Shown here: positions 4,834-59,285 of the stretch, piece by piece | Position numbering within the stretch: the first letter of the stretch is position 1 | Layout: each line of letters starts with the position of its first letter | Source: a virus | DNA length: 64,000 nt | Virus record (IMG/VR): IMGVR_UViG_3300043446_001855 | Coordinates: 1 to 64,000 of that record | Direction: 5' to 3' (one strand) | Translations under genes and position numbers: made by a program | The notes under the pieces: model-generated | What the model saw: the letters and a program-made list of their open reading frames with translations, nothing else | The model's database searches: none | What the model was told of the DNA's origin: nothing

Positions 4834-7800
4834 TGGACTTGTCCTCGTCAACGAATGCGCCCTTGTATATCACAAGCCCCGGAGGTCTCTGTCCCTCGGT
4901 AGCAGTGGTACTTGGTGCTGAGAGGTAAGCCGAAGTTTCAAAACCAGAAGAATAGTTCCAAGAATGAGTAACGCCCTCGACATACATATTGATTTTCTGA
5001 TCTGAGAAGTGCACAATGCCCCCGGCAATTATCTCTGGCATGAACGCCAACTGTACTGTTGTTGCGGTATGCATTGACCAGTTGTACAAGAACAGATTGT
5101 AAGCGGTAGCAAACTCAAACCATGGGCTTCTGATAAGGGGCTCGTTCATTATCTTTGGACGTGCGCCGTATGTTCCGATGAAGTCAAGAGCATCCTTGCT
5201 CATGCTGTCATAGTATTGCGGATAGTCCGGGGCTGCGGCATTCTCTGGGTCAAAGTTATCGGGCTCGTTGTCTCCACTCAAGCCTGTCGCGGCATCTGGT
5301 TCACCAATAATGTTTAGCCCGTTGTTTGAAAACACATCGTCAATTGTTATTACGCCTACAGAATTAACTTGATCAAGTTGATCAACAGAGTTCTTGAGAG
5401 GATTGATTGTGTTGCCGTTGACATACATATGCGTGACAATGGGCTCGTCATTCAGAACGATGTTGAAGTCGATCACATCGATGTCGCTTATCTCAAGATA
5501 TGGTTCTCTTCCGAACGTTCCAAAATGGTCAGGATAGAAAGCACAGAACATTCCGTTCGGCAGGCTCATGTAGTGACGCATCGATCCTTTGCACAGTTGA
5601 TCGATGCCCTGCATGACAGGGACATCGTTCATCAGTGATTTCTCTCCGATTAAGAAAGAAGATCCAATCAAATCGAAGGGGAAGGCAGTAATGGTGGTGA
5701 ACGCTGCTGCTGTGCTGACCTTTGCAAGGTCGGACCATGTCGGCTGAAATCCTGACTGAGCGTTATCGTCTGGGTTGTCCTGCTTTTGTGTATCTGGCGA
5801 CCTCACAATCTCCCCATTGTGAACGGGCTTAGGGAATGTCTCATTGGCTTCTATGACCATAGAGTACGATTGATTCTTTAATTCCGAAACAAAGAAATCG
5901 TTGGTGTTGAGAGTCTTAGATGTGATCACGGGGACGTTCTCATTGAAGACTATTTGCCATTGGAGAATGCCGTTGAATGTAAACACAATTCTTCGTGCTA
6001 TTGAGTTCGCAATAGCGTTTGGGGAAATCTTATCTTCTGTGCTGCTTGCTGAGATTATCCCTGTGTTTTTCAAGAACGATAAGATTCTGTCTGCCGTCGC
6101 TCCGTTATCTTTTAAATATATTCTATCGTTTTCTTTTGTCTCTGTGTTTGGCACATCCCTATCAAGAAAGTGAAGATCATATCTTGACGCAATGTAAAAC
6201 CATTCAGCGAGTCTTTGACTTGTCCCCTTGTACTTGTTTTGAAAAAAACCGCCCTCTGAGACTTTATCATAATGCTTATGATAAAGATCAATATCAGATT
6301 GATTAATCTTCATATCCTGATAACTGTTCTCAACCGTATCTGCCTGATGACCAAGAACGGTACTCAGTTCATCGACATACGCATCGCGTGAATCGGAAGC
6401 GCTTTTTCCGTTATCACTTGCGCTAGGAATTTGATCTCCTGTGATTTTGAAATTGAGATCGTAAATTGCTTCATCGTTTTTGAATTTAGAGAACCCCAAA
6501 TCAAGAACCGTATGATCAGACAAAGTAAACATTGCTTTTGAGTCACCTGAAAGACGGGTCCCAAGATAAACGCACTTGCAAGACTTCTCTGTAGACGGGT
6601 CGGTGATGAGAACAATGTCCCCAACCTTTAATTTGGACGCCTCTTTGAATCTTGGTTTGATTACCGATCCGTTTGGTTGCGGAAGACTGCTCGCATAAAC
6701 GTAATATTTTATCTCAGAATATTTGAGCGGAATCTTTTTAATTTTTGGAAGTTCTGTTACGGTGTCTGTACCGGGACTGTATGGAGTGAACTTTGTTGCG
6801 TAGGTTTTATCAAGTCCGAGAACCGTGACATCACCTGCCTCTTTTCCATTGTCACCAAATGTTTTTCCATTGCCCGAGAGTTTGACGACTTCTGAACCGG
6901 AGGGCTTTGCATTCTTGGGAAACATCGAATCCCAAGTAACTCTTGTTGTGCCTAATTCTTCCTGAACCTCGGACGCCGTTATAACGTCAAGGGACCGCAA
7001 ATCTTCAAAAGACTTGTTCTCTTTCATATTGTTGAGAACCTTTTGCGCAACGTCTAGGTTTTTAGGATCTCTGCACGCTTGAAGAATTTGAGAATAAAAT
7101 TTAGGCTTGTCATAGCCATAAGACAAAACAACCGCCACTTCGGCAATTTGCTCGTCAGACAGACCGCCACCCATTACTACTGAATATGTTGGGTTGTTTG
7201 AAAGAACATAAGACCATATGGTGCAAAAGTTTTTGCCCTGATACTCTGGGGTTTTTGCTTTGCTTTCCCTGTCCCTTGGTCCGGGCTTAATGTTTAGATT
7301 GGGATCTGCAAAGTATCCATAACCGCGTGAGGGTGAGTGACTATCCGTGTTCTTGAAGTCTTTTTCAAGTCCACTCATAACGAGAGCGGCAAGAATCATC
7401 TGCAGTTCTGTGGGCTTTCTTGTGGTGTTAGACAGACCAATTGACTTAATAAGATGATTCATTTCCGCAACGTCGGCTTTTCCACTTATGCCTGTGATTG
7501 TAGAACTGCCAACGTCTGATGCGCCATCCGCTGTGTGCGTCACATCGACGCTAACAAAGTTTTTTATTGCGGCGAGCATTCCTTCCTGAGCGGACTTTGA
7601 CGCTTTGAACTTCTTGTTGAAAGCAGTAAGCATTGTGCTTGGAAGATCTTGCGGCAGATCACCTATGGCTATACCGGCAGCGTCAACGTTACCGATCTCA
7701 ATCAGGAAGTCGTGCAGCAATTGACCCATGCCCGCGTCTCTTGGAACGTTTCCAGAGTCTTGATTGCCTGTTCCTAATGCTTCCGGATTATAGAAAGCGT

Positions 7801-8233
7801 CAAGATTACCATTGCCTCTTGGCACCCAGCCTTTCTCCGCCAACCAATTGAGGAAGCCAACACCCGGATCGAAGTGAGAGTAGAGGAATTGCTTAAGGGT
7901 GCACGTCGCAGTGATCTCAATCTCGCCGGGATACGCCTGAAAGTACGGGATTGAATCTATGAAACCGGTGAATACCTGAACTGGTCTTCCAGCATATCTC
8001 TGCAACCAAATCGTAATCCCGTCCATTGGATAGAACATCGGGTTGAATTTACCCGTGTACTTCCAGTCATCATTTCTCAATGTTATGTTGGCTTTCGACG
8101 GCTGATTGATGAGTCGCTGAACGCTGCCGGCAGATACGTCGTTGCTGACATCGACTGTCTCTCCGGTCTTGCGAGAATAGATAAATACATACGCTTTAGG
8201 AGCGTAGACGACTCTTCTTAGCGGACCGGACAT
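4826..8233 (-). CDS. Large baseplate hub protein (gpD/gp27-like)
   Basis: 1135 residues. The N-terminus resembles gpD/gp27 hub proteins, which form a tube-like ring joining the tail tube to the spike: strands with VYAPKAYVFIYSRKTGETV, then SKANITLRNDDWKYTG, then IWLQRYAGRPVQVFTGFID and EIEITATCTLKQFLY. The middle (about residues 150-800) is a long charged and polar insertion with many Lys, Asp and Ser. The C-terminus returns to hub-like segments (MYVEGVTHSWNYSSGFETSAYLS). It is about two to three times longer than P2 gpD (387 residues in P2). It ends eight bases into the spike gene and starts next to the structural gene at 8233-9075. Confidence 0.75.
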   Translation of the reverse strand: MSGPLRRVVYAPKAYVFIYSRKTGETVDVSNDVSAGSVQRLINQPSKANITLRNDDWKYTGKFNPMFYPMDGITIWLQRYAGRPVQVFTGFIDSIPYFQAYPGEIEITATCTLKQFLYSHFDPGVGFLNWLAEKGWVPRGNGNLDAFYNPEALGTGNQDSGNVPRDAGMGQLLHDFLIEIGNVDAAGIAIGDLPQDLPSTMLTAFNKKFKASKSAQEGMLAAIKNFVSVDVTHTADGASDVGSSTITGISGKADVAEMNHLIKSIGLSNTTRKPTELQMILAALVMSGLEKDFKNTDSHSPSRGYGYFADPNLNIKPGPRDRESKAKTPEYQGKNFCTIWSYVLSNNPTYSVVMGGGLSDEQIAEVAVVLSYGYDKPKFYSQILQACRDPKNLDVAQKVLNNMKENKSFEDLRSLDVITASEVQEELGTTRVTWDSMFPKNAKPSGSEVVKLSGNGKTFGDNGKEAGDVTVLGLDKTYATKFTPYSPGTDTVTELPKIKKIPLKYSEIKYYVYASSLPQPNGSVIKPRFKEASKLKVGDIVLITDPSTEKSCKCVYLGTRLSGDSKAMFTLSDHTVLDLGFSKFKNDEAIYDLNFKITGDQIPSASDNGKSASDSRDAYVDELSTVLGHQADTVENSYQDMKINQSDIDLYHKHYDKVSEGGFFQNKYKGTSQRLAEWFYIASRYDLHFLDRDVPNTETKENDRIYLKDNGATADRILSFLKNTGIISASSTEDKISPNAIANSIARRIVFTFNGILQWQIVFNENVPVITSKTLNTNDFFVSELKNQSYSMVIEANETFPKPVHNGEIVRSPDTQKQDNPDDNAQSGFQPTWSDLAKVSTAAAFTTITAFPFDLIGSSFLIGEKSLMNDVPVMQGIDQLCKGSMRHYMSLPNGMFCAFYPDHFGTFGREPYLEISDIDVIDFNIVLNDEPIVTHMYVNGNTINPLKNSVDQLDQVNSVGVITIDDVFSNNGLNIIGEPDAATGLSGDNEPDNFDPENAAAPDYPQYYDSMSKDALDFIGTYGARPKIMNEPLIRSPWFEFATAYNLFLYNWSMHTATTVQLAFMPEIIAGGIVHFSDQKINMYVEGVTHSWNYSSGFETSAYLSAPSTTATEGQRPPGLVIYKGAFVDEDKSNG

Positions 8234-9075
8234 TAGCCTTGGTTTCCTCCCGGGCCACCCGGTATCGCGTCAAACGCTTCGCCGTACCCAGAGTCTGTCG
8301 TTGGATTACCCCTGCTCACCTTTGCGCCATCAAGGTTGTAGCCTTTGCCAATTGAGTTCTTGAACTCCTGACTATAATCCTTGACTGGCGTGACAGGCGC
8401 TTCCATAAGATCTTTGTCCGGGAAGTAACTTATCACGGCAAAACTTATTTCTATCTCTGGGTTGTAGATTCCTTTAGTGTGGCCCGCTCTTATTGCCATA
8501 GGGTATCCGTCAAATGAAACCGAATTATACTTGAAGTATGTGTATTGTCCGCTGGGATCGGCCTTCGGTGGAGGGTTGTCTCTTTCTCCTCTACCGTTTA
8601 CAAACTTTGCTGGTGGCATATAAAAACGAACTATGTCCACCTCTGTTGGGCTTTTTGTTGTGCCGGGGACAATCGCATTTGATTGAAAGTACAAAAGTTT
8701 CTCGACAATCTCATCGTAGTGAGCCTGACTTGCGGTCTGCGCCTTGATTGTGATGTTGGGATAGCGAGCGTGTCTCGGGTAAAACGATTTGCCAAATGCG
8801 GTTTGAGAGGACCTGTAATCCATTGACCAAGCAATGTTAAATTCATGAACCCACAATCGAAGAATGTTCTTTCTATTGTCGTCGTTCATTGACGGCTGCA
8901 CACCAGCGGTATGGAGGATTAGATAAGCGTCGGATGGAGATTTCGGTCTTAGACGAACATCTGGGAAGTGCCCCTTGCCAGTGCTGCTCCACCTGTTCCC
9001 GGTGTTTGTTTTGTCGGTTACCTTTTGATTAGGAATAACAGGATCGAGTCCACCATATTTGATCTCATCAGCCAT
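8233..9075 (-). CDS. Baseplate/tail structural protein, unknown
   Basis: 280 residues, sharing one base with each neighbour. It contains ILRLWVHEFNIAWSMDYRSS and YPRHARYPNITIKAQTASQA, a beta-rich pattern seen in small LysM-less tail proteins that precede the hub. The N-terminal part of the next upstream protein (tail lysin) has a similar layout, including a segment where particles of known repeats (MSIANYFRGYIQ versus IVEKLLYFQSNAI) align by eye. This suggests both bind the same ring in the baseplate or tube tip. The C-terminal 40 residues are Gly/Pro-rich (AIPGGPGG). No catalytic motif seen. Confidence 0.55.
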   Translation of the reverse strand: MADEIKYGGLDPVIPNQKVTDKTNTGNRWSSTGKGHFPDVRLRPKSPSDAYLILHTAGVQPSMNDDNRKNILRLWVHEFNIAWSMDYRSSQTAFGKSFYPRHARYPNITIKAQTASQAHYDEIVEKLLYFQSNAIVPGTTKSPTEVDIVRFYMPPAKFVNGRGERDNPPPKADPSGQYTYFKYNSVSFDGYPMAIRAGHTKGIYNPEIEISFAVISYFPDKDLMEAPVTPVKDYSQEFKNSIGKGYNLDGAKVSRGNPTTDSGYGEAFDAIPGGPGGNQG

Positions 9076-11102
9076 TACTTCTTCACCTGCTTATAGACCT
9101 CGGCGAGGAATGTTTCGGGATTTCCAGACTCTCCTTCGCCATAGACACCGCCCTTCATTCCAAAGTGAAGATGACTGGCGCAACCGATAAGACTGCCGTT
9201 TTCGATATAGCCAAGAAGTTGTCCCTTCTTGATTTTTGCGCCCTGCTTGATTTCAGGACCAGCGTATCCTCTCTTCATGTGCTGATAGAAGAAGTAGCCA
9301 TACTTCGTTCTCAGATGCAGACGAGCACCATATACTGTTCCGTTTGGTTCCGTGTATCCGAATCCGTCGGTAGTAATTTCTCCATCCGCAACAGCGTAGA
9401 CAGGGGTCCCGGCGTCCCTAAAGAGATCACAGGCGTTGTCTGATTCCCAATTTTTAAGTTGTCTGCTCATGTGATCGGCAACACCACCAGACCATTCCCC
9501 AGACCTCGGATTTGGAAGCGGGTAGGCAACGTCCTGCCCAACTGCAGGCGCTCCTCCACCGGTCCCCAAGTTGCCACTAATCGCTTGCTGATCATACTGT
9601 TGAGGATTCTTTAGATACTTGTCGACTGCGGCTTTTGCTTTTGCATCGATGCTTGAGTACTGAGACTTTCCATGTGCCACCCAAGAATCCCAACTCTCAT
9701 TCCAATTAAGGTATATGATTGCCATGGCTTTTGCGTTGGCAAGAGGATCGTCAAGCATTTTCTGATGATTTTTGTTATCAATGTTTGCTTGAACACTTTC
9801 TTTCCAAGGTTCCGACTTTGCGGTTGGCGAGGTTCTGGATACGTTTTCGCCGCAGGCGACACGAATCTCATTCGGGTGCCAATAGTTATTGATCTGCCAT
9901 AAGCCTAGATCGTAACTCGCAGAAGATCCTCCCGATGATTCGGTCGGCATCTTGTTTGCATCTCCGGCGATGTAGGATGCGTAGTCCTCTTGACCGCCGT
10001 CGCCGTTGTAATTGATTGACTGAGTGTTCCATCCGGATTCGCCGTAAGCAACCTTAACAGCCTCGACAAGAACGTTTCTATTCTTGGCCAATGAGTTCTC
10101 GCCGATTTGTTTGAAACCGTTTGCCGCAAGCGCAGCAACAAGTTCTGGCTCAAGAGTCCCGCTCAAACTGCTGGTTCCTCCGGGAGTCTCAAGCGCACCA
10201 CCGGCTCCAGTTCCTGTTGTCCCGGAGAACGGTGTCGAACTTCCGAATGTCTCCTCATATATCGACTGAGCGTCTTGAACCGGATCGGCGATGGGATTGT
10301 TCTGTAGTTGCTCTATCCCGCCTGTGGCCCAAGAAGCGATCATCGAATCAAAGTTCTCAGCGATCTTTCCTCTTCTGCCGTCAGCGAACTCTGTGAGATT
10401 CCCAAATGGATTGCTGGATTTACTGAAGTTTCTTGGACCGCGAACGGCTTTCTTGACTTTGATATAGGTTTTTGAATTGATTGGCTGATTGAGAACGCTT
10501 GCCCATTGATCTGTCCTCTGTTCGCCCAAGGCATAACGATCATTCTCTGAAACGATCTCCGCAGTGATAGACCACTGTGGGGCGACGATATCTCGTGAGA
10601 AGCGAATGTCCTGAACGTCTGTGACCATTATTATGAATGACCAACTTCTAGCCGGGTACACGAACTTAAGGAACTTTTGGTGCCTCTCCTTGTTGACCCA
10701 ACCGGTTGTGTACTGAATGTATCCACGGAAGTAATTCGCAATGCTCATCATCTCATGATAGTTGCGGCATGTTCCTTTAATTGTCATCTTGTCGGCGAAT
10801 GTGGATAGAATCTGAACAACCTCTCCACCGTAGGTCGGGACCCTCTTCATGTTCATCCCGTAGCCCCAAGTGATCTCGTCTGCACCGGTTGGGATTAATA
10901 GACCATCGTAAGCAGATGACGGGTTAAAAGACTTCATCCATTGCTTGAAGTCGTTGTCATCACCCGCAGGAGTAAACGAAAGGCCGATGTTGTATTCGTT
11001 ATAGCCAATAACGTTTCCCGATTTATCGCGAACAATCTCTCCCGGATTGGTTAGCGCAGCACGATTAAGTGGCTGGTTCTCATGAAAATACTTACGTTCC
11101 AT
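9075..11102 (-). CDS. Tail lysin: structural domain, lysozyme-like domain and M23 peptidase
   Basis: 675 residues in three parts. Residues 1-230 are a tail/baseplate adaptor resembling the gene-8233 product. Residues about 335-500 look like a transglycosylase/lysozyme fold: catalytic-type Glu at E355 in AYGESGW, then YDLGLWQINNYWHP and the WNESWDSWVAH stretch. Residues about 540-670 are M23-like: GTPVYAVADGEI, FFYQHM, and the HxH motif (HLHFG, about 644-648). The first His of the usual HxxxD is replaced (DNACD, 555-559), so zinc binding may differ. The protein probably digests peptidoglycan locally during injection. Position downstream of the tape measure supports this. Confidence 0.85.
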   Translation of the reverse strand: MERKYFHENQPLNRAALTNPGEIVRDKSGNVIGYNEYNIGLSFTPAGDDNDFKQWMKSFNPSSAYDGLLIPTGADEITWGYGMNMKRVPTYGGEVVQILSTFADKMTIKGTCRNYHEMMSIANYFRGYIQYTTGWVNKERHQKFLKFVYPARSWSFIIMVTDVQDIRFSRDIVAPQWSITAEIVSENDRYALGEQRTDQWASVLNQPINSKTYIKVKKAVRGPRNFSKSSNPFGNLTEFADGRRGKIAENFDSMIASWATGGIEQLQNNPIADPVQDAQSIYEETFGSSTPFSGTTGTGAGGALETPGGTSSLSGTLEPELVAALAANGFKQIGENSLAKNRNVLVEAVKVAYGESGWNTQSINYNGDGGQEDYASYIAGDANKMPTESSGGSSASYDLGLWQINNYWHPNEIRVACGENVSRTSPTAKSEPWKESVQANIDNKNHQKMLDDPLANAKAMAIIYLNWNESWDSWVAHGKSQYSSIDAKAKAAVDKYLKNPQQYDQQAISGNLGTGGGAPAVGQDVAYPLPNPRSGEWSGGVADHMSRQLKNWESDNACDLFRDAGTPVYAVADGEITTDGFGYTEPNGTVYGARLHLRTKYGYFFYQHMKRGYAGPEIKQGAKIKKGQLLGYIENGSLIGCASHLHFGMKGGVYGEGESGNPETFLAEVYKQVKK

Positions 11103-20182: not shown

Positions 20183-21235
20183 CTACTTATTAGAGGCACG
20201 ATATAACGCTAAATTCGCTATTAGTCTTTCGTCTTCTGGTGCGAATTTGATAGCCTCTTCCCCGTAGGCAATCGCTCTGCTCTTGAGACCGAGGTGGTGG
20301 CAGGCTACCGCAGCAAGATCATACGGATCAGACCCCCATGCGAACTCCTCACAAAGATACTCAAGTGGTTTGTCTGTGATCGAAAGCGCCCGCTTTGCGG
20401 CGGCTAGTGTCGGCTCCCATTCTTCTCTCATATAATGATAGAGTGACAGTTCTACCCACCCCTCACGTCTCTCAGGACACTCTGCGCAGGCTTTTAAGAG
20501 CCATTGCTCGCGCTGGTCTTCTTCTATGATTGCGAGATAGCGCATCGATCTGGCGCGTTCTGGGGCCCATACAGCGCGTGGTAGGGCTAGGTGCCGCCTA
20601 AACTCAGCCGCTGCTCTTTCCCACTGGTTATAAAAGAAAAGTTCACGAGCAAAATAGAAGGCATTGCGGTCGTCGTCTGGATCCTCTTCCACTGATAACT
20701 CAAGCAATGGCAGGTAAGAAGATCGAGACTTGGTGTTGTCCGGGAAATGATGTATCTCTAAGCCACACCAGCCCTGCACCTCTGGCTTGGTCGAATGCAA
20801 AACCTCGTGCACAGGATGACGCCAGACGTAATCTTTGCGTGTGTGGATCTTGTCTCCGCCGTATTGAAGTCCGGGGGTACCGTCTTCTTTCCACGACCAT
20901 GTGTACTGGTAACGGACACGCATGACGCCCTGCTCATGCATCCTCTCTAGTTCTTCACGCCAGCCCGGAAGCAGAACCTCGTCAATGTCTAGGGCGATAC
21001 AGTAGTCAAAGTCCTCGGGGATTGCCTCAAGACTTTTGTTTCTTGCCACATCGAAACGCCAAGGATCAACTTTGATCTCAATGACTTCAGCACCACACTC
21101 TTTGGCAAGAGAGACAGTGTTGTCTGTAGAGCCCGTATCCGCAAGGAGAATAAGATCAGCATCTTTGGCCGAGGCGATCCACCGCTTTACGAACTGCTCT
21201 TCGTTTTTGGAAATACTATAGACTGCAACCCTCAT
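20183..21235 (-). CDS. Family 2 glycosyltransferase with TPR-like C-terminus
   Basis: 350 residues. The GT-A fold is clear: SISKNEEQFVKRWIASAKD, then ADTGSTDNTVSLAKECGAEV and the metal-binding DxD in IALDIDEVLLPGW near residue 92. Residues about 190-350 have helical repeats like tetratricopeptides (ARSMRYLAIIEEDQREQWLL, WVELSLYHYMREEWE). The domain pair is common in bacterial protein or cell-surface glycosyltransferases. It sits directly after the collagen-like fibre gene and has its own TGATATAAT element six bases before the ATG. The substrate could be that fibre or host surface sugar; both are inference. Confidence 0.9.
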   Translation of the reverse strand: MRVAVYSISKNEEQFVKRWIASAKDADLILLADTGSTDNTVSLAKECGAEVIEIKVDPWRFDVARNKSLEAIPEDFDYCIALDIDEVLLPGWREELERMHEQGVMRVRYQYTWSWKEDGTPGLQYGGDKIHTRKDYVWRHPVHEVLHSTKPEVQGWCGLEIHHFPDNTKSRSSYLPLLELSVEEDPDDDRNAFYFARELFFYNQWERAAAEFRRHLALPRAVWAPERARSMRYLAIIEEDQREQWLLKACAECPERREGWVELSLYHYMREEWEPTLAAAKRALSITDKPLEYLCEEFAWGSDPYDLAAVACHHLGLKSRAIAYGEEAIKFAPEDERLIANLALYRASNK

Positions 21236-35656: not shown

Positions 35657-36313
35657 CTATGTCTTTATTATGTGCCAAACCAAAATGTATGGCGGGTAAT
35701 CGCTGATGACAGAACCGCCGGACTTCGGTGCGGTAGAGTTTTGGGCGGTTGAAGCGTAGTGAGCATGAGAATGAGAATTTGTCGAATTGAGCGATCCGGC
35801 ATTTCCACCATGCTGATGACCCCATGTCAAATTCATCTCGGCAACAGACGAATGACTGTGATCATCTCGGGCCGTATAATTTGCAGTGCCGCTTACCAAT
35901 AGTGTGTTTGCGCTTGAAGTATTTGTGTTCGCTCCGTTGGAGGCGTGATAATGATTTGCCTCATAATATGATGACGAGGCGGAATTAAAATTGTGGCCGT
36001 GTCCGCTTTCACCATTTGTGCTCACATATGAAGTATTTGTGAAAGCATGAATGTGGCTAAACCCAGAGTTCCCGACACCAAAACTGTTTGCTCCGGACAT
36101 GAGTCTCATAGACGTAGGCAAAGTAAATGTGCTTGAACTAGTGGAGCCAAATGAGGTTGATATCGCAGAGAACAAATCGCCATAAGACGATCTTAAAACT
36201 TCAGATCCGTCACAATAAAGCCAACCGGATGGAGGCGCAGATTGAACGCCTCCAAGATAGGGCATAATAGTTCCTGCAGGGATGAGTGTTGCTGGGCTTT
36301 GTGTATTACTCAT
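35657..36313 (-). CDS. Tail collar domain protein 3
   Basis: 218 residues. Tail-collar signature APPSGWLYCDGSEVLRSSYG followed by SSSTFTLPTSMRLMSG. The rest is Asn/Ser/His-rich with NYTARDDHSHSSVAEMNLTW. It overlaps the next upstream paralogue by four bases, so the three collar genes here form one translational unit. Its stop lies 24 bases before the large zinc-finger gene. Confidence 0.85.
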   Translation of the reverse strand: MSNTQSPATLIPAGTIMPYLGGVQSAPPSGWLYCDGSEVLRSSYGDLFSAISTSFGSTSSSTFTLPTSMRLMSGANSFGVGNSGFSHIHAFTNTSYVSTNGESGHGHNFNSASSSYYEANHYHASNGANTNTSSANTLLVSGTANYTARDDHSHSSVAEMNLTWGHQHGGNAGSLNSTNSHSHAHYASTAQNSTAPKSGGSVISDYPPYILVWHIIKT

Positions 36314-36969
36314 ATCTTAATAATGTATTTTACTTGGTGAGCCGGGGCGTAAGATGTTGTTGTCGCCGATATGGATGATACGTTGTTTGCAATAGTCAAA
36401 TGTGTATGATTGTGGGCTCCGCCCCCGCTTATTCCAGACGGTGTGGCATTATGCCAATGCCCTCCACTTGCGTCGGTAGCCCTAGCACCCACAGAGTGAG
36501 CGTGGTTTGCTAACGCTCTCGCTAACGTTCCGCTGGTAGATTTGGCATTGCCGGTATTAGATCCGGAAACGCTTGTGTTCGCCCCATACACAGTATGGGC
36601 ATGACTTCCCTGAGTATCTGTGTACGCTCCCCCCGCCTGATTGTGCGAATGATCACCAGTTGTGTTTGTGGATAATGCATTTATAGCACCACTTATTGAA
36701 TGGCTGTGGCTGTTTGACCCAGTGAGTGTTCCTGCGACAACAGTGGATGAAGCGCCCGCCGGCATTCTATTTATAAGGTCTGGCAATCTGAAATAACCAG
36801 AACTCTCTGCGCCAGTGTTGTAGGTTGTTGCAATGGCATTGTAAAGGTCTTGATATTGTGTAATAAGTACTTGAGAGCCGTCGCAAAACAACCAGCCCGT
36901 GGGGGCGGTTGGTTCGCAACAAGCAACAATCATTCCCGAATAAACGCCCGAATGAAGACCGCCCGCCAC
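36310..36969 (-). CDS. Tail collar domain protein 2
   Basis: 219 residues with EPTAPTGWLFCDGSQVLITQ and FRLPDLINRMPAGASS, the same two motifs as its neighbours. His-rich C-terminal half (NSHSHSISGAINALSTNT, NHAHSVGARATDASGGHWHN). Start and stop overlap both neighbours by one to four bases. Likely a receptor-binding fibre tip, with host-range alternatives on the same virion or by recombination. Confidence 0.85.
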   Translation of the reverse strand: MAGGLHSGVYSGMIVACCEPTAPTGWLFCDGSQVLITQYQDLYNAIATTYNTGAESSGYFRLPDLINRMPAGASSTVVAGTLTGSNSHSHSISGAINALSTNTTGDHSHNQAGGAYTDTQGSHAHTVYGANTSVSGSNTGNAKSTSGTLARALANHAHSVGARATDASGGHWHNATPSGISGGGAHNHTHLTIANNVSSISATTTSYAPAHQVKYIIKI

Positions 36970-37724
36970 TACTGCACCGCCAAAACTATGTAGTGAACTC
37001 TAAGATTTGCTGGAGCGTGTGAAACCTCTGATGGTGTTTGCGTGCTGCCCGTCAAAGTAACAACATGACTGTGGCCGGTTGTGTAGGCATAGTCTGTTCC
37101 GCCTAAAGAGTAATTAGAAATTAAATTGTGGGCATGTGTTCCGCTACCATAAGTGGTGTAACCGATATAATGAGAGTGCGTGTTGAACGCCGCTGCAGTA
37201 TTTCCTGTTGCTGCCGTTGTTGCGTTCGCATTAGTATTGTTATACGACGCAAGACCACCTAACTCATTGCCGGCATGAGTATGGTCTCCAGTATTATTGA
37301 GTCCACCTATATTAAAACCATGCTCATGATAATTTGTGTTAGTGGAATTGGTGTTGGTTGTTGAAACGGTGAAGTCGTGAGTGTGTGTGTTTGTACCGCC
37401 AGTCGTGGCGACGTATGCACTTCCGGGATTGTTTGTCGCTTTTGTTGGAGACATAAGAAACCTGTCTCTCATGTCTGGCAATCTAAAATGCGTAGAACCC
37501 GCTGCTCCCGATCCATTGGTATTTGCGCCATACGGAAACACCGTACCGGTTAAGGTGATTGAGTTGTACAGGGCCTGATACGAGGAGATCGAAACCTCTT
37601 GACCGTCGCACAACAGCCAGCCATCAGGTGGTGTCGATGAGTGCCACGCCATAACCACGCCGATAGGCATGTTTGCTACGCTTCGGCGTCTGTCGGCGTC
37701 AGTGTTGAATACCTTTTTTATCAC
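36969..37724 (-). CDS. Tail collar domain protein 1
   Basis: 251 residues. Collar motif STPPDGWLLCDGQEVSISSY and HFRLPDMRDRFLMSPT. The C-terminal half has many Asn, Thr and His residues (NTNSTNTNYHEHGFNIGGLN). It lies directly after the long fibre gene, sharing the same transcript. Percentage identity with its two paralogues is visibly modest outside the motif. Confidence 0.85.
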   Translation of the reverse strand: MIKKVFNTDADRRRSVANMPIGVVMAWHSSTPPDGWLLCDGQEVSISSYQALYNSITLTGTVFPYGANTNGSGAAGSTHFRLPDMRDRFLMSPTKATNNPGSAYVATTGGTNTHTHDFTVSTTNTNSTNTNYHEHGFNIGGLNNTGDHTHAGNELGGLASYNNTNANATTAATGNTAAAFNTHSHYIGYTTYGSGTHAHNLISNYSLGGTDYAYTTGHSHVVTLTGSTQTPSEVSHAPANLRVHYIVLAVQ

Positions 37725-44804: not shown

Positions 44805-44822
44805 TCCTCCTTGGAAAATTAG

Positions 44823-44896
44823 TCCGCGAGGCAGGATTCGAACCTGCGACCTAGGGATTAGAAGTCCCTCGCTCTATCCACTGAGCCACTCGCGGA
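44823..44896 (-). tRNA. tRNA-Arg (anticodon TCT)
   Basis: Full cloverleaf on the minus strand. Acceptor TCCGCGA / TCGCGGA, T-loop TTCGAAT with CAGG/CCTG-type stem, anticodon stem AGGGA/TCCCT around the loop CTTCTAA (anticodon TCT, reading AGA). 74 bases without encoded CCA. Useful for AGA codons in a host where that codon may be rare. Confidence 0.95.
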
Positions 44897-50698: not shown

Positions 50699-50699
50699 A

Positions 50700-50771
50700 T
50701 AGCCCGTCGGAGAATCGAACTCCGCTTACCGCCGTGAAAGGGCGGCGTCCTAACCGATAGACGAACGGGCC
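50700..50771 (-). tRNA. tRNA-Glu (anticodon TTC)
   Basis: Minus strand. Acceptor GGCCCGT / ACGGGCT (one G-U), D-arm GTCTATCGGTTAGGAC, anticodon stem CCGCC/GGCGG around CTTTCAC (anticodon TTC), T-arm CGGAG-TTCGATT-CTCCG. It closely follows bacterial tRNA-Glu. No CCA encoded. It follows the hairpin at 50774 and is followed by the atypical RNA. Confidence 0.95.
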
Positions 50772-50773
50772 AA

Positions 50774-53757: not shown

Positions 53758-54183
53758 TTACACAGGCCAATAGTATTCTAGTTTGTCGCTATCCTCTGGC
53801 CAATACTGACGATAGTGATCAGGGTCTTTGCGTAGAAGATTAGAACGATGGGACGCATGAACACGATAGTCGCCCCACCACTCGGGATTATATTCAGAAT
53901 TTGGACGAGAGAAATTACTATCAAACACCGCCGTAGTCTTATCAAGACAGGTATCTTTGTAGCCACGTCCGGTCCACTCATTGCAGGTCGCCACCTGATA
54001 GAGAAGAAGCCCGTACTCGTGCCCCCTCCACATCTTGACGGCGGGATGATTGACCCACCCCTTGCTCAGACCGGCGAGTACGTTCATGATCTGCAGGGTC
54101 TCAACTCGCTGCTTGCCTAGCCGCTTGTTATCAAGAACAGCGACAGACCCGATGTAGTCTGGTTCTGGAATGAAGGTTTGCAT
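53758..54183 (-). CDS. Pyrimidine-dimer DNA glycosylase family protein
   Basis: 141 residues. The pattern MQTFIPEPDYIGSVAVLDNK, RLGKQRVETLQIMNVL, WVNHPAVKMWRGHEYGLLLY and VHASHRSNLLRKDPDHY is that of the Pyr_excise-like family frequent in Actinobacteria and their phages, distantly related to T4 endonuclease V. It would cut UV-damaged DNA or act as a nuclease on DNA. RBS weak (GGAAAG). Stands apart from the replication genes but near NHEJ genes. Confidence 0.75.
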   Translation of the reverse strand: MQTFIPEPDYIGSVAVLDNKRLGKQRVETLQIMNVLAGLSKGWVNHPAVKMWRGHEYGLLLYQVATCNEWTGRGYKDTCLDKTTAVFDSNFSRPNSEYNPEWWGDYRVHASHRSNLLRKDPDHYRQYWPEDSDKLEYYWPV

Positions 54184-56327: not shown

Positions 56328-56558
56328 TTATCTGTGCTCAAGGCACTTCGTTGGCGGACGACCGGGCTTGCCGGTCCTTTCAATGGGTTTACCACAAACG
56401 CTGCAGGCGCTGTCTGGATAGAAGGTCTTGAGGTTGACCATCTCGACAGCCTTAGTCTTAGACTTGGCGACCTTTCTTCCACCGCCAAGGTTGTACTCAT
56501 CGAATACTCGACGTGCTGCTTCTCGCAGTCTCTTGCGCCGCTCTTCTTCTCTGGTCAT
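56328..56558 (-). CDS. Small zinc/AT-hook-like protein
   Basis: 76 residues. Basic helical N-terminus (REEERRKRLREAARRVFDEY), then CSVCGKPIERTGKPGRPPTK with KCLEHR. The last part is one unit of the C-x2-C plus KRGRP loop seen twice in the product at 51152. Likely DNA-binding. It overlaps the ligase gene by four bases. Confidence 0.65.
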   Translation of the reverse strand: MTREEERRKRLREAARRVFDEYNLGGGRKVAKSKTKAVEMVNLKTFYPDSACSVCGKPIERTGKPGRPPTKCLEHR

Positions 56559-57277
56559 TCCTTTATCCCGTGAAAGATCGGATTACGATAACGACGTTTA
56601 TTCATTCCGTAATGCTTGATGACACAGGGCTTCCCAATATAGTCCGCCCCGTTGAGTGTCAGCATCCTGCGAGTTTTAGAATCAAATCCAGCGGCAGTTC
56701 CTAGAACCGTCCCGTCTGCCGTTCCGAACACGACCTTGCCAACACCATCAGACCAGCGGCCCTTACCTCGCTCAAGATTGAGGATGACCGCATCCATGTA
56801 GTTGACGTGCTTCCACTTGACCCACGACACACGACCGGCTCGATAGGGAGACAGGAGCGGCTTGCCAATCACGCCCTCCCATTCCTCGGGCACCTCGGGC
56901 ATCTTCTCCTCGGGGAATGCAAAGATGGGAAGAGCATCGGCGACGACTTTACTGAGGAGGTTGAGCCGCACAAGCAGCGACTCGTTGCGGACATCATCAC
57001 CGTCATGCTTGACGATATCGAAGGGTACGAACTTAACTGCGCCCCAGTCCCTCTTGGTCAGGGCGGGGACAACATCAGAGAACCTGTCTCCAACGATCTC
57101 TCCGTCGAGCACACACCCAGCCGGAACCTCGATGCCGTGATTGGCATACGAAATGGTTCGCAACTGGATGCGGCTCTCGGAGACAAACGCCCTGACGCCA
57201 TCCAACTTCTGCTGCCAGAGCATGTTTCCCGTAGACTCGGGCAGATCAGTCAGTTCCTTGCACAGGGCGAAGTTCAT
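56555..57277 (-). CDS. Compact ATP-dependent DNA ligase
   Basis: 240 residues, near the minimum for this family. Motif I KLDGVR with K24 as adenylation site, LDGEIV (57-62), FVPFDIV (about 83-89), WEGVIGKP (about 133-140), WVKWKHV (152-158), and the OB-domain end RYRNPIFHGIKE. All catalytic motifs are present but no DNA-binding domain. Minimal ligases often rely on partners; the next upstream gene encodes Ku. Joins nicks or ends using ATP. Confidence 0.85.
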   Translation of the reverse strand: MNFALCKELTDLPESTGNMLWQQKLDGVRAFVSESRIQLRTISYANHGIEVPAGCVLDGEIVGDRFSDVVPALTKRDWGAVKFVPFDIVKHDGDDVRNESLLVRLNLLSKVVADALPIFAFPEEKMPEVPEEWEGVIGKPLLSPYRAGRVSWVKWKHVNYMDAVILNLERGKGRWSDGVGKVVFGTADGTVLGTAAGFDSKTRRMLTLNGADYIGKPCVIKHYGMNKRRYRNPIFHGIKE

Positions 57278-58126
57278 TTAGACCGTGGTCTTCTTCTTAG
57301 CGGAGGGCTTGCTGGGCTGCACCGCCTTGAGGTTGGCGAGCAGCGCCTCCTTGCTGGCCTCGGCCTTCGCCTTCTTGGGCGCAGCGACAGGAACCTGACC
57401 GCTAGCCTTGGCGTGGACCAGATCCAGCACCGCGTCCTTGAACTCGTTCTTGAATGCGAACGGGTCGAAGGTGCCACGAAGCGAGTCGACAAGAGCAGAC
57501 GCGGCCTCGACAAGATCAGCGTCAGCCTCGCCCTCAATCACCGGAGCGGGATTGATTGCATTCGCCGTGTGCAGAGTGGACAGCATCAGACGACCGTCGC
57601 GGTTGTAGACAGCGACAGCCTGATGCTTGTTGCGAAGGACGATATCACCAACGCCAACGCTATCGCCAAGCATCGCGCTGACAAGATGATAACGACCTGT
57701 CGCATGCTCCTCGTCTGCCTTCGTTGCCACGCCAACATAGTAGGTGGCATTGAGCATCAGCGGATCAATCTCGTTCATCGCAACGATGTTCGTGATGTTC
57801 ACAGCCGAAGACTTCTCGGGGAGCAGGGCGTTGATCTCCTCCTGATCAAGCACAACGATCTCGTCCTCGGACAGGAAGAAGCCCTTGCGGATGTCGCTGC
57901 TCTGGAGGGCATCGCACTCCTTGATAGCGACGACCTTCTCGCCCTTGGAATCAAGGACAATCGAGGAGCCGGCAACGGTCGGGCGCTTGGTGCGCTGACC
58001 GTCAGGGCCGATCTCGCAGAAGGTCACCTTGTCCTCACGGTCATTGACCGTCGAGTACAGGGAGATGGGAGCATCGACAATGCCAATGCTCAGGGTAAGG
58101 TTGGACGCACCGGGAGTGGGTCGCAT
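57278..58126 (-). CDS. Ku protein (NHEJ)
   Basis: 282 residues. The bacterial Ku core is visible: SIGIVDAPISLYSTVNDRED, then GPDGQRTKRPT, RKGFFLSEDEIVVLDQEEIN and LLPEKSSAVNITNIVAMNEI, with RYHLVSAMLGDSVGVGDIVL. It ends in a Lys-rich tail (PKKAKAEASKEALLANLKAV). Ku clamps double-strand ends and recruits ligase. In the order of transcription it lies immediately before the ATP-dependent ligase. Mycobacteriophages Omega and Corndog encode Ku and are thought to use it for genome circularisation. Confidence 0.9.
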   Translation of the reverse strand: MRPTPGASNLTLSIGIVDAPISLYSTVNDREDKVTFCEIGPDGQRTKRPTVAGSSIVLDSKGEKVVAIKECDALQSSDIRKGFFLSEDEIVVLDQEEINALLPEKSSAVNITNIVAMNEIDPLMLNATYYVGVATKADEEHATGRYHLVSAMLGDSVGVGDIVLRNKHQAVAVYNRDGRLMLSTLHTANAINPAPVIEGEADADLVEAASALVDSLRGTFDPFAFKNEFKDAVLDLVHAKASGQVPVAAPKKAKAEASKEALLANLKAVQPSKPSAKKKTTV

Positions 58127-58149
58127 ATTCTTTCTCCTTTTCTTGATTA

Positions 58150-58177
58150 CCGGGCCGGGGCCGAAGCCCCGACCCGG
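58150..58177 (-). terminator. Very stable hairpin with UUCG loop
   Basis: Minus strand: CCGGGTCGGGGC-TTCG-GCCCCGGCCCGG, a 12-bp stem (one G-U) capped by the C(UUCG)G tetraloop. There is no T tract after it. It sits between the DUF932 gene and Ku and may reduce transcription into Ku or protect the mRNA end. Confidence 0.6.
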
Positions 58178-58189
58178 CTCCTTTCATCG

Positions 58190-59215
58190 TCAGACTGCGG
58201 TGAGCAGTCCGTACGCCTTGTCCACGATGGTGGCGTTGCCGTCGCCCATCGTGCGGCGGAAGCGGTTCTCCTCCGCCGAAGCGCGCTTCGTCTTCTTGGA
58301 CGTAGCGAAGTGCTGGTTGTAGGTGGACACGGAGTTGAGCGCCCACCACTTGGTGTTCTTGATCGGCTCCATGTCCGGCAGGTTGACCTGCACGTTGCGG
58401 TTGCCATCCTCAACCCGGAGGTTGTTGTAGGCGATGGAGCGAATCACGTCCTGCGTGTTCGTGGCGATGGTCTTGCCACGCCCCTCCTCCTCGGGCATCG
58501 GCAGGAGGGACGAGAGGAAGGTCTCGAACTCCTGATCGGAGAACGAGGTGTGGAGCATCTCGTCCGCCTTGGTCTCGAACTCTGCCATGTAGTTGAAGAC
58601 CACACCCAGAGCGGTGCGAGCCTCCGACAGACGACCCGACAGCGACGACGTGTGGCGGACCTTGAAGGTGCGCTTCGCCGTGCTGAGGGCGAGGGACAGG
58701 GTGTTCTGGCAGACGACCCGGACAGGGGTCGCAGCCAGCGTGATCGCCGAAGAGCCGTCGTGGCTGTTCGACAGGAGGATGAAGGTGGCGAGATCCTCGT
58801 CGCCGATCTTCACCTCACGGGGCAGACGAGCCAGCAGCGAGACCTTCGCGCCATCCTTGAGCGAGATGACAGCCTCGTACTTGGCCTCGCCGCTGTCCAC
58901 CAGATCGTCGAGGAACGAGAGAGCCTCAACGTTCTGAAGGATCTTGTAGCGCTCACCGACGATGGCAAGAGGCTTGAAGTCCTCCGACCGCACGTTGGCG
59001 ACGTAGCCCGGGACGGGAATGAACAGTCCCGTGTCCGGGTTCTTGGCGTAGACCGGCTCCGGCACGATGGGGGAGGCCAGTTCGGGGACGCGCTTGAGGC
59101 AGTCCTCGGCGGTCATCAGACCGTCTACGACAACGCCCAGCCCATGCCACGCGGGCTTGTAGGCATAGGCGGCTGCACCGGTACCATCGGCGCGGATTTC
59201 CAGTTCATGAGCCAT
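58190..59215 (-). CDS. DUF932 phage/plasmid protein
   Basis: 341 residues. WHGLGVVVDGLMTAEDCLKR, then SLKDGAKVSLLARLPREVK, NSHDGSSAITLAATPVRVVC and the final GDGNATIVDKAY region match the DUF932 (phage/plasmid-like TIGR03299) family. These proteins are widespread in phages of Actinobacteria and in plasmids; some bind ssDNA or replication intermediates. It begins the operon behind the strong promoter at 59257 and is followed by the hairpin and Ku. Confidence 0.85.
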   Translation of the reverse strand: MAHELEIRADGTGAAAYAYKPAWHGLGVVVDGLMTAEDCLKRVPELASPIVPEPVYAKNPDTGLFIPVPGYVANVRSEDFKPLAIVGERYKILQNVEALSFLDDLVDSGEAKYEAVISLKDGAKVSLLARLPREVKIGDEDLATFILLSNSHDGSSAITLAATPVRVVCQNTLSLALSTAKRTFKVRHTSSLSGRLSEARTALGVVFNYMAEFETKADEMLHTSFSDQEFETFLSSLLPMPEEEGRGKTIATNTQDVIRSIAYNNLRVEDGNRNVQVNLPDMEPIKNTKWWALNSVSTYNQHFATSKKTKRASAEENRFRRTMGDGNATIVDKAYGLLTAV

Positions 59216-59256
59216 TTGTGTTCTCCTTTGTTTATGGCTGTTGACTAGGTACAGGA

Positions 59257-59285
59257 AAGATACAGACTTGACGACAAGTTGTCAA
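59257..59285 (-). promoter_or_regulatory. Sigma-70 promoter with operator-like palindrome
   Basis: Minus strand TTGACA (59280-59285), 17-base spacer, TATCTT (59257-59262). The sequence CTTGACAACTTGTCGTCAAG spans the -35 and spacer and is a 20-base imperfect palindrome (16 of 20 symmetric), a likely repressor site. Start of transcription near 59250, about 35 bases before the DUF932 ATG. The clearest promoter in the window. Confidence 0.8.

Follow-up and report, generated by a model that had tools for sequence, protein, structure and literature searches.

The phage described here carries a bacterial-type Ku gene and, directly behind it, a gene for a minimal ATP-dependent DNA ligase, and we consider it probable that the two form a phage-encoded end-joining module in which a Ku-guided ligase seals breaks in phage DNA. 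The source is a linear IMG/VR virus record of 71,501 bp, the first 64,000 nt of which make up the window analysed. The Ku and ligase genes and the elements around them are located as follows:

57278..58126, minus strand (read from 58126 to 57278): Ku, 282 aa, matched by PF02735 and PHROG 4873
56555..57277, minus strand (read from 57277 to 56555): minimal ATP-dependent DNA ligase, 240 aa, matched by PF01068, PF14743 and PHROG 114
57275..57280, minus strand: junction TAA/ATG of Ku stop and ligase start codon, from sequence and start context
58127..58140, minus strand: ribosome-binding site of Ku, AAAAGGAGAAAGAAT-ATG, from sequence
58190..59215, minus strand: DUF932 protein (PF06067, 1e-54), just upstream of Ku in the same gene run
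59257..59285, minus strand: candidate promoter TTGACA-17-TATCTT from a consensus scan, preceding the DUF932-Ku-ligase run

A preliminary description of this DNA had reported a Ku gene followed by a ligase gene at these positions, and both reading frames are present, on the minus strand, with products of 282 and 240 aa. Their junction reads GTC TAA ATG AAC, so that 0 nt separate the stop codon from the ATG. As the TAA directly abuts the ATG, co-transcription of the two genes is very probable, and their translation may be coupled. A clear and strong ribosome-binding site precedes Ku in the window (AAGGAGAAAGAAT-ATG); its counterpart in a second phage contig, L016, reads AAAGGAGAAACCT-ATG. The promoter of the run is a weak candidate, the consensus scan having returned 2 sites where 1.4 were expected by chance. 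An 813-aa open reading frame on the plus strand (56807-59248), which overlaps Ku and ligase, was rejected as a shadow frame opposite conserved genes. About 2.4 kb from the pair lies a gene for a pyrimidine-dimer DNA glycosylase of UV repair (53758-54183, minus strand; PF03013, 2e-23), a proximity that fits a repair setting.

Both profile and fold bear out the earlier assignment of the 282-residue product to the Ku family. It matches PF02735 at 4e-13 (50.1 bits, above the curated cut-off of 25) and PHROG 4873, 'Ku-like DNA end binding', at 1.5e-23. The match to TIGR02772 is nearly full length (4.8e-36) and, at 124.5 bits, below the equivalog cut-off of 150; the protein is thus a homologue of bacterial Ku and not a certified equivalog. 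A sequence search of the PDB returned Ku structures (2e-15). The AlphaFold monomer model is weak (pLDDT 56), as may be expected of a dimeric ring protein; nonetheless, the top Foldseek matches are all Ku, those of B. subtilis and M. tuberculosis being the best (2e-14). Judged by its sequence, the gene at 57278-58126 on the minus strand encodes a divergent Ku of the bacterial type.

The protein is laid out as a beta-barrel core (approx. residues 20-194), a helical arm, a C-terminal helix with the sequence EALLANLKA and a short basic tail (PSKPSAKKKTTV). The Ku core is the sole domain matched within the 282 residues; vWA and SAP domains are absent and the minimal C-terminal region is present. 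L262, A264, L266 and V269 are invariant in an alignment of 24 Ku proteins; D250 and S258, which belong to the minimal C-terminus of M. tuberculosis Ku, have no conserved equivalents in the window protein. Bacterial Ku rings bind and bridge DNA ends and stimulate LigD. Going by its family, the phage Ku would form a homodimeric ring that binds double-strand ends. Since it combines the EALLANLKA helix with only a short basic tail, its anatomy suggests a likeness to the form that stimulates a bare ligase domain.

The ligase consists of a nucleotidyltransferase domain (approx. residues 1-165) and an OB domain (approx. residues 166-240), without an added DNA-binding domain. Its description as a compact ATP-dependent ligase lacking such a domain agrees with the match to PHROG 114 (1.1e-21) and with the fold, PF01068 being borderline (8e-6; 26.1 bits against a cut-off of 26.2, and 27.2 bits in a six-frame search). 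The OB domain matches PF14743 at 4e-4, with 20.8 bits against a cut-off of 28. The TIGR02779 NHEJ ligase domain is matched at 3.2e-14 over residues 55-192 only, and the score of 52.9 bits is far below the cut-off of 227.75. The AlphaFold model (pLDDT 86.9) supports the two-domain architecture. Foldseek placed Lig E (6gdr, 3e-13) first, with the ligase domain of M. tuberculosis LigD (7e-12) and the Chlorella virus ligase also among the top matches, and a profile of the ligase and its L016 counterpart matches 1vs0 at 4.6e-8.

The claim that all nucleotidyltransferase motifs are present holds for motifs I (K24-LDG), III (LDGE, FD), IV (EGV), V (WVKWK) and VI (RNP) and is overstated as regards the arginine of motif Ia. 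When aligned with actinobacterial stand-alone NHEJ ligases, the phage enzyme keeps K24, E60, F86-D87, R104, E134-G135, K139, W152, K154, R231 and P233, as well as K156, and lacks several surface elements that amount to approx. 75 residues in total. The motif Ia arginine is conserved as R39 in Ame-Lig and R42 in the Chlorella virus ligase (PMC6144786). In the alignments of both phage ligases it is not at the corresponding position, which is occupied by I42/S43/Y44 in the window and by I/S/F in L016; both share R40, close to this position. The arginine also seems to be lacking there in a T7-like phage ligase included in the same alignment, which is uncertain in this part. We therefore treat its absence as a caveat and not as proof of inactivity.

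By its N-terminus, MNFALCKELTD, with 23 residues ahead of the motif I lysine, the ligase lacks the periplasmic leader that is a trait of Lig E, which makes it viral or Chlorella-like rather than a Lig E proper. In sequence, NHEJ ligases are the nearest match of the nucleotidyltransferase part, and the OB part belongs to the PF14743 type, which Lig E and the Chlorella virus ligase have in common. The OB domain of LigC, by comparison, is PF04679 (PMC8455567). As the phage OB domain is of the former and not of the latter type, we refer to the enzyme as a viral-type minimal ligase rather than a piece of LigD. With 240 aa it falls below the 250-370 aa of the minimal ATP ligases surveyed in PMC8455567. 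A stand-alone minimal ligase, Bsp-lig, seals cohesive but not blunt breaks (PMC8455567), a gap that a bridging partner could fill. The LigD polymerase (PF21686) and phosphoesterase (PF13298) domains are absent from both phage records, which are incomplete; ends that need processing would thus be beyond the pair alone.

The pairing of Ku and ligase that the preliminary description had emphasised recurs in L016 (IMGVR_UViG_3300032223_001256, 42.8 kb), where Ku, a 94-aa open reading frame and the ligase follow each other on one strand. The two contigs are broadly collinear, with identities of 61% for Ku, 79% for the ligase, 92% for the major head protein and 90% for DUF932. The DUF932 gene is located upstream of Ku in the window and downstream of the ligase in L016, and a relative of the 94-aa frame sits elsewhere in the window. 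Since DUF932 has switched sides and the small frame has moved between the two genes, Ku and ligase have stayed together while their flanks changed. Both genes are under purifying selection; the dN/dS values (NG86, window versus L016) of 0.32 for Ku and 0.10 for the ligase are rough because silent sites are near saturation. As window and L016 belong to one lineage, their shared retention of the pair counts as one evolutionary observation, to which one rearrangement is added. In scans of viral contigs, L016 (also listed as L021, the same contig) was the sole other carrier of the pair, all other Ku genes belonging to mycobacteriophages or to the virus contig L015. A scan of genome contigs with the ligase pair gave no further carrier.

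Since 2006, mycobacteriophages have been known to carry Ku. Phages of the Omega and Corndog type reportedly rely on the host ligase (Pitcher et al. 2006). A tblastn search of 50,697 phage records with the window Ku found the gene in 80 records, 79 of which are from Mycobacterium phages and one a bacterial fragment under a wrong label, and two other Ku queries against the same collection gave the same picture (82 records each). Known phage Ku is thus almost only found in mycobacteriophages of the Omega and Corndog type, and no non-mycobacterial phage Ku occurred in this collection; a paper from 2025 counts the Streptomyces phage BillNye among the Ku carriers (PMC11936186). MT838252.1, labelled 'Bacteriophage sp.', encodes a Ku with matches of up to 90% identity, amid genes of cellular type. 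Most likely a chromosomal fragment of a Phycicoccus-like actinobacterium, it was not counted as a source of phage Ku. The Ku genes of mycobacteriophages are surrounded by small open reading frames and no ligase. Searching whole records with PF01068 revealed an ATP ligase in the window phage and in L016 and none in six phages of the Omega/Corndog type, which agrees with what had been claimed of them, nor in L015. The latter (IMGVR_UViG_2772190736, 90.6 kb) encodes a Ku of 303 aa within positions 7218-10930 (PF02735, 2e-42), approx. 1.2 kb downstream of the terminase large-subunit gene. With a packaging gene so close, this Ku may act at genome ends. In the literature covered, with most subscription journals outside the scope, we found no report of a phage with a ligase in addition to Ku.

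In a tree of 28 Ku proteins, the window and L016 proteins stand apart and the mycobacteriophage proteins fall among actinobacterial Ku. Constraining all phage Ku to one clade came near to rejection without crossing the threshold (p-AU 0.053), with long branches involved. The Ku of window and L016 was likely acquired separately from that of Omega and Corndog. Among bacteria, a Ku gene is present in 186 of the 396 Actinomycetota genomes sampled. A profile of the phage Ku pair detected nothing near the pair in these 396 genomes; the best score was 101 bits, and the top places looked like ordinary bacterial Ku. Bacterial loci in which Ku lies beside a stand-alone NHEJ ligase of approx. 315 aa are common in Intrasporangiaceae and Nocardioidaceae, and the pairing of Ku and ligase as such is thus known from chromosomes.

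The capsid and tail sheath proteins are nearest to those of large actinophage myoviruses with genomes of 139-165 kb, for example Mycobacterium phages Myrna and ScoobyDoobyDoo, Gordonia phage Skog and Rhodococcus phages E3 and Finch. The phage is thus probably a large myovirus of actinobacteria. Neither a terminase nor a DNA polymerase turned up among the proteins scanned, one terminase family having been sought over the whole record, and genome ends were not found on the record either. Given the missing terminase and polymerase, the record probably covers about half a genome, and statements of absence hold for this record only. A glycosyltransferase (20183-21235, minus strand) is 59% identical to that of the freshwater Actinomycetia phage DSL-LC01. 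As the virions are unrelated, this points to gene exchange and hints at a freshwater actinobacterial host. DSL-LC01 itself was discarded as a relative with respect to Ku and ligase, having neither gene annotated. The window further contains genes for tRNA-Arg(TCT) (44822-44895, minus strand) and tRNA-Glu(TTC) (50699-50772, minus strand), and for three successive tail-fibre-like proteins of 218-251 aa, whose PHROG matches overlap and which seem to form a tandem family (35657-37724, minus strand). Beyond the window, positions 67752-68285 of the record (minus strand) encode a 177-aa protein with the C-terminal domain of ribosomal protein L7/L12 (PF00542, 1.8e-7, above the Pfam cut-off).

We infer that Ku and ligase cooperate and that they do so on phage DNA. 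The homodimeric Ku ring would form on DNA ends, shield them from host nucleases and bridge two of them. The co-expressed small ligase, devoid of a DNA-binding domain of its own, would be brought to the bridged ends, or helped there, by Ku, and would then seal breaks in phage DNA with compatible ends that require no processing. The most likely use would be on breaks that arise from damage or from host restriction or CRISPR nucleases, and the second most likely the joining of genome ends at entry. In a wider and more tentative reading, which we find conceivable without leaning towards it, the phage would practise self-sufficient viral end joining: a Ku that was possibly acquired separately would work with a viral-type minimal ligase in place of LigD, without polymerase or nuclease, in repair or counter-restriction and also in hosts devoid of NHEJ.

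The two genes could also serve independent functions and be neighbours merely as members of one gene module. Ku would then only shield ends from host exonucleases, comparable to Gam of phage Mu, and the ligase would seal nicks from replication or base excision repair. For Gam, a role in shielding linear phage DNA has been proposed (PMC1378119), which provides a precedent. Small phage ligases, such as the structural neighbours of the present enzyme, are common and many act in replication, so that the ligase could be a general one. The stronger selection on the ligase than on Ku looks as if the genes were partly independent, the glycosylase gene lies in the same region, and in L016 the pair is not strictly adjacent, the intervening 94-aa frame counting against a module. 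Yet the zero-gap coupling in the window, the strand and gene order that are the same in both phages despite shuffled neighbours, and the C-terminal LLAxLKA helix of bacterial Ku that the phage protein retains all speak against separate roles, which we regard as rather unlikely. Less probable still is that Ku works for a LigD of the host, as in Omega and Corndog, beside a ligase that is incidental or has decayed to a partly inactive copy. The apparently missing motif Ia arginine would suit such a copy, and the frequency of Ku in Actinomycetota means that many hosts may own an NHEJ system. However, the ligase is the more conserved gene of the pair and keeps K24, E60, E134, K154, K156 and R231; stronger conservation and retained residues are unlike a decaying gene and make decay of the ligase unlikely.

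Circularisation at entry is a special case of the end-joining module, in which phage Ku and ligase would join short cohesive genome ends without a host LigD. A precedent is Corndog, whose genome has a 4-base 3' overhang and seems to be recircularised through NHEJ with the aid of the phage's own Ku (PMC4351075); the position of the L015 Ku near a terminase gene points the same way. In contrast to the overhangs of Corndog, a subcluster C1 phage of the related myovirus group, the one structurally closest to the window phage, is circularly permuted (PMC4472892). This points to headful packaging without fixed ends and renders circularisation doubtful; in addition, neither ends nor terminase were found on the record. 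Circularisation, named as the purpose in the preliminary description, thus does not hold up well and in our view is unlikely to be the main role of the pair. Among accidental breaks, cuts by host-defence nucleases and genome termini, the last are the weakest candidate substrate, and circularisation is no likelier a use than break repair or end protection. What the preliminary description observed is borne out almost throughout. The core of its interpretation, a phage that bears both Ku and ligase, is plausible; the purpose and the independence from the host that it proposed are unproven.

If the end-joining module operates as outlined, a phage with Ku and ligase would demonstrate that a minimal joining reaction can be encoded in full by a virus. 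Such a phage may bring its own kit for break repair, where the known Ku phages are thought to borrow that of the host. The pair would be one of the smallest natural sets of Ku and ligase with which to ask what the ligase needs from Ku, a question normally blurred by the polymerase domain of LigD, and might be developed into a compact end-joining tool for bacteria without NHEJ. A phage-encoded end-joining module of two parts can be read as a new form of NHEJ.

The phage Ku has the core domain, the length and the C-terminal LLAxL(E/K)A helix in common with the NHEJ Ku of B. subtilis and M. tuberculosis, but is only about 20-29% identical to bacterial NHEJ Ku, carries insertions near residues 50-75 and forms, with its L016 sister, a long separate branch of 3.1 changes per column. 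Like the Ku of Omega and Corndog, it is phage-borne, of the bacterial type and of similar size (approx. 282-284 aa); unlike these phages, which have Ku without an ATP ligase of their own on record, the window phage has both. The ligase shares its two-domain architecture with Lig E and Chlorella virus ligases, and its OB domain ends like that of the Chlorella virus enzyme, whereas its shorter length, the apparently missing motif Ia arginine and the pairing with Ku set it apart. Finally, the LigD ligase domain (TIGR02779) is the best sequence match of the phage nucleotidyltransferase domain, and in gene neighbourhood the phage pair resembles the NHEJ loci of bacteria. Compared with this domain, stand-alone forms included, the phage enzyme has an OB domain of another family, is approx. 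75 residues shorter and has no polymerase or phosphoesterase partner on record.
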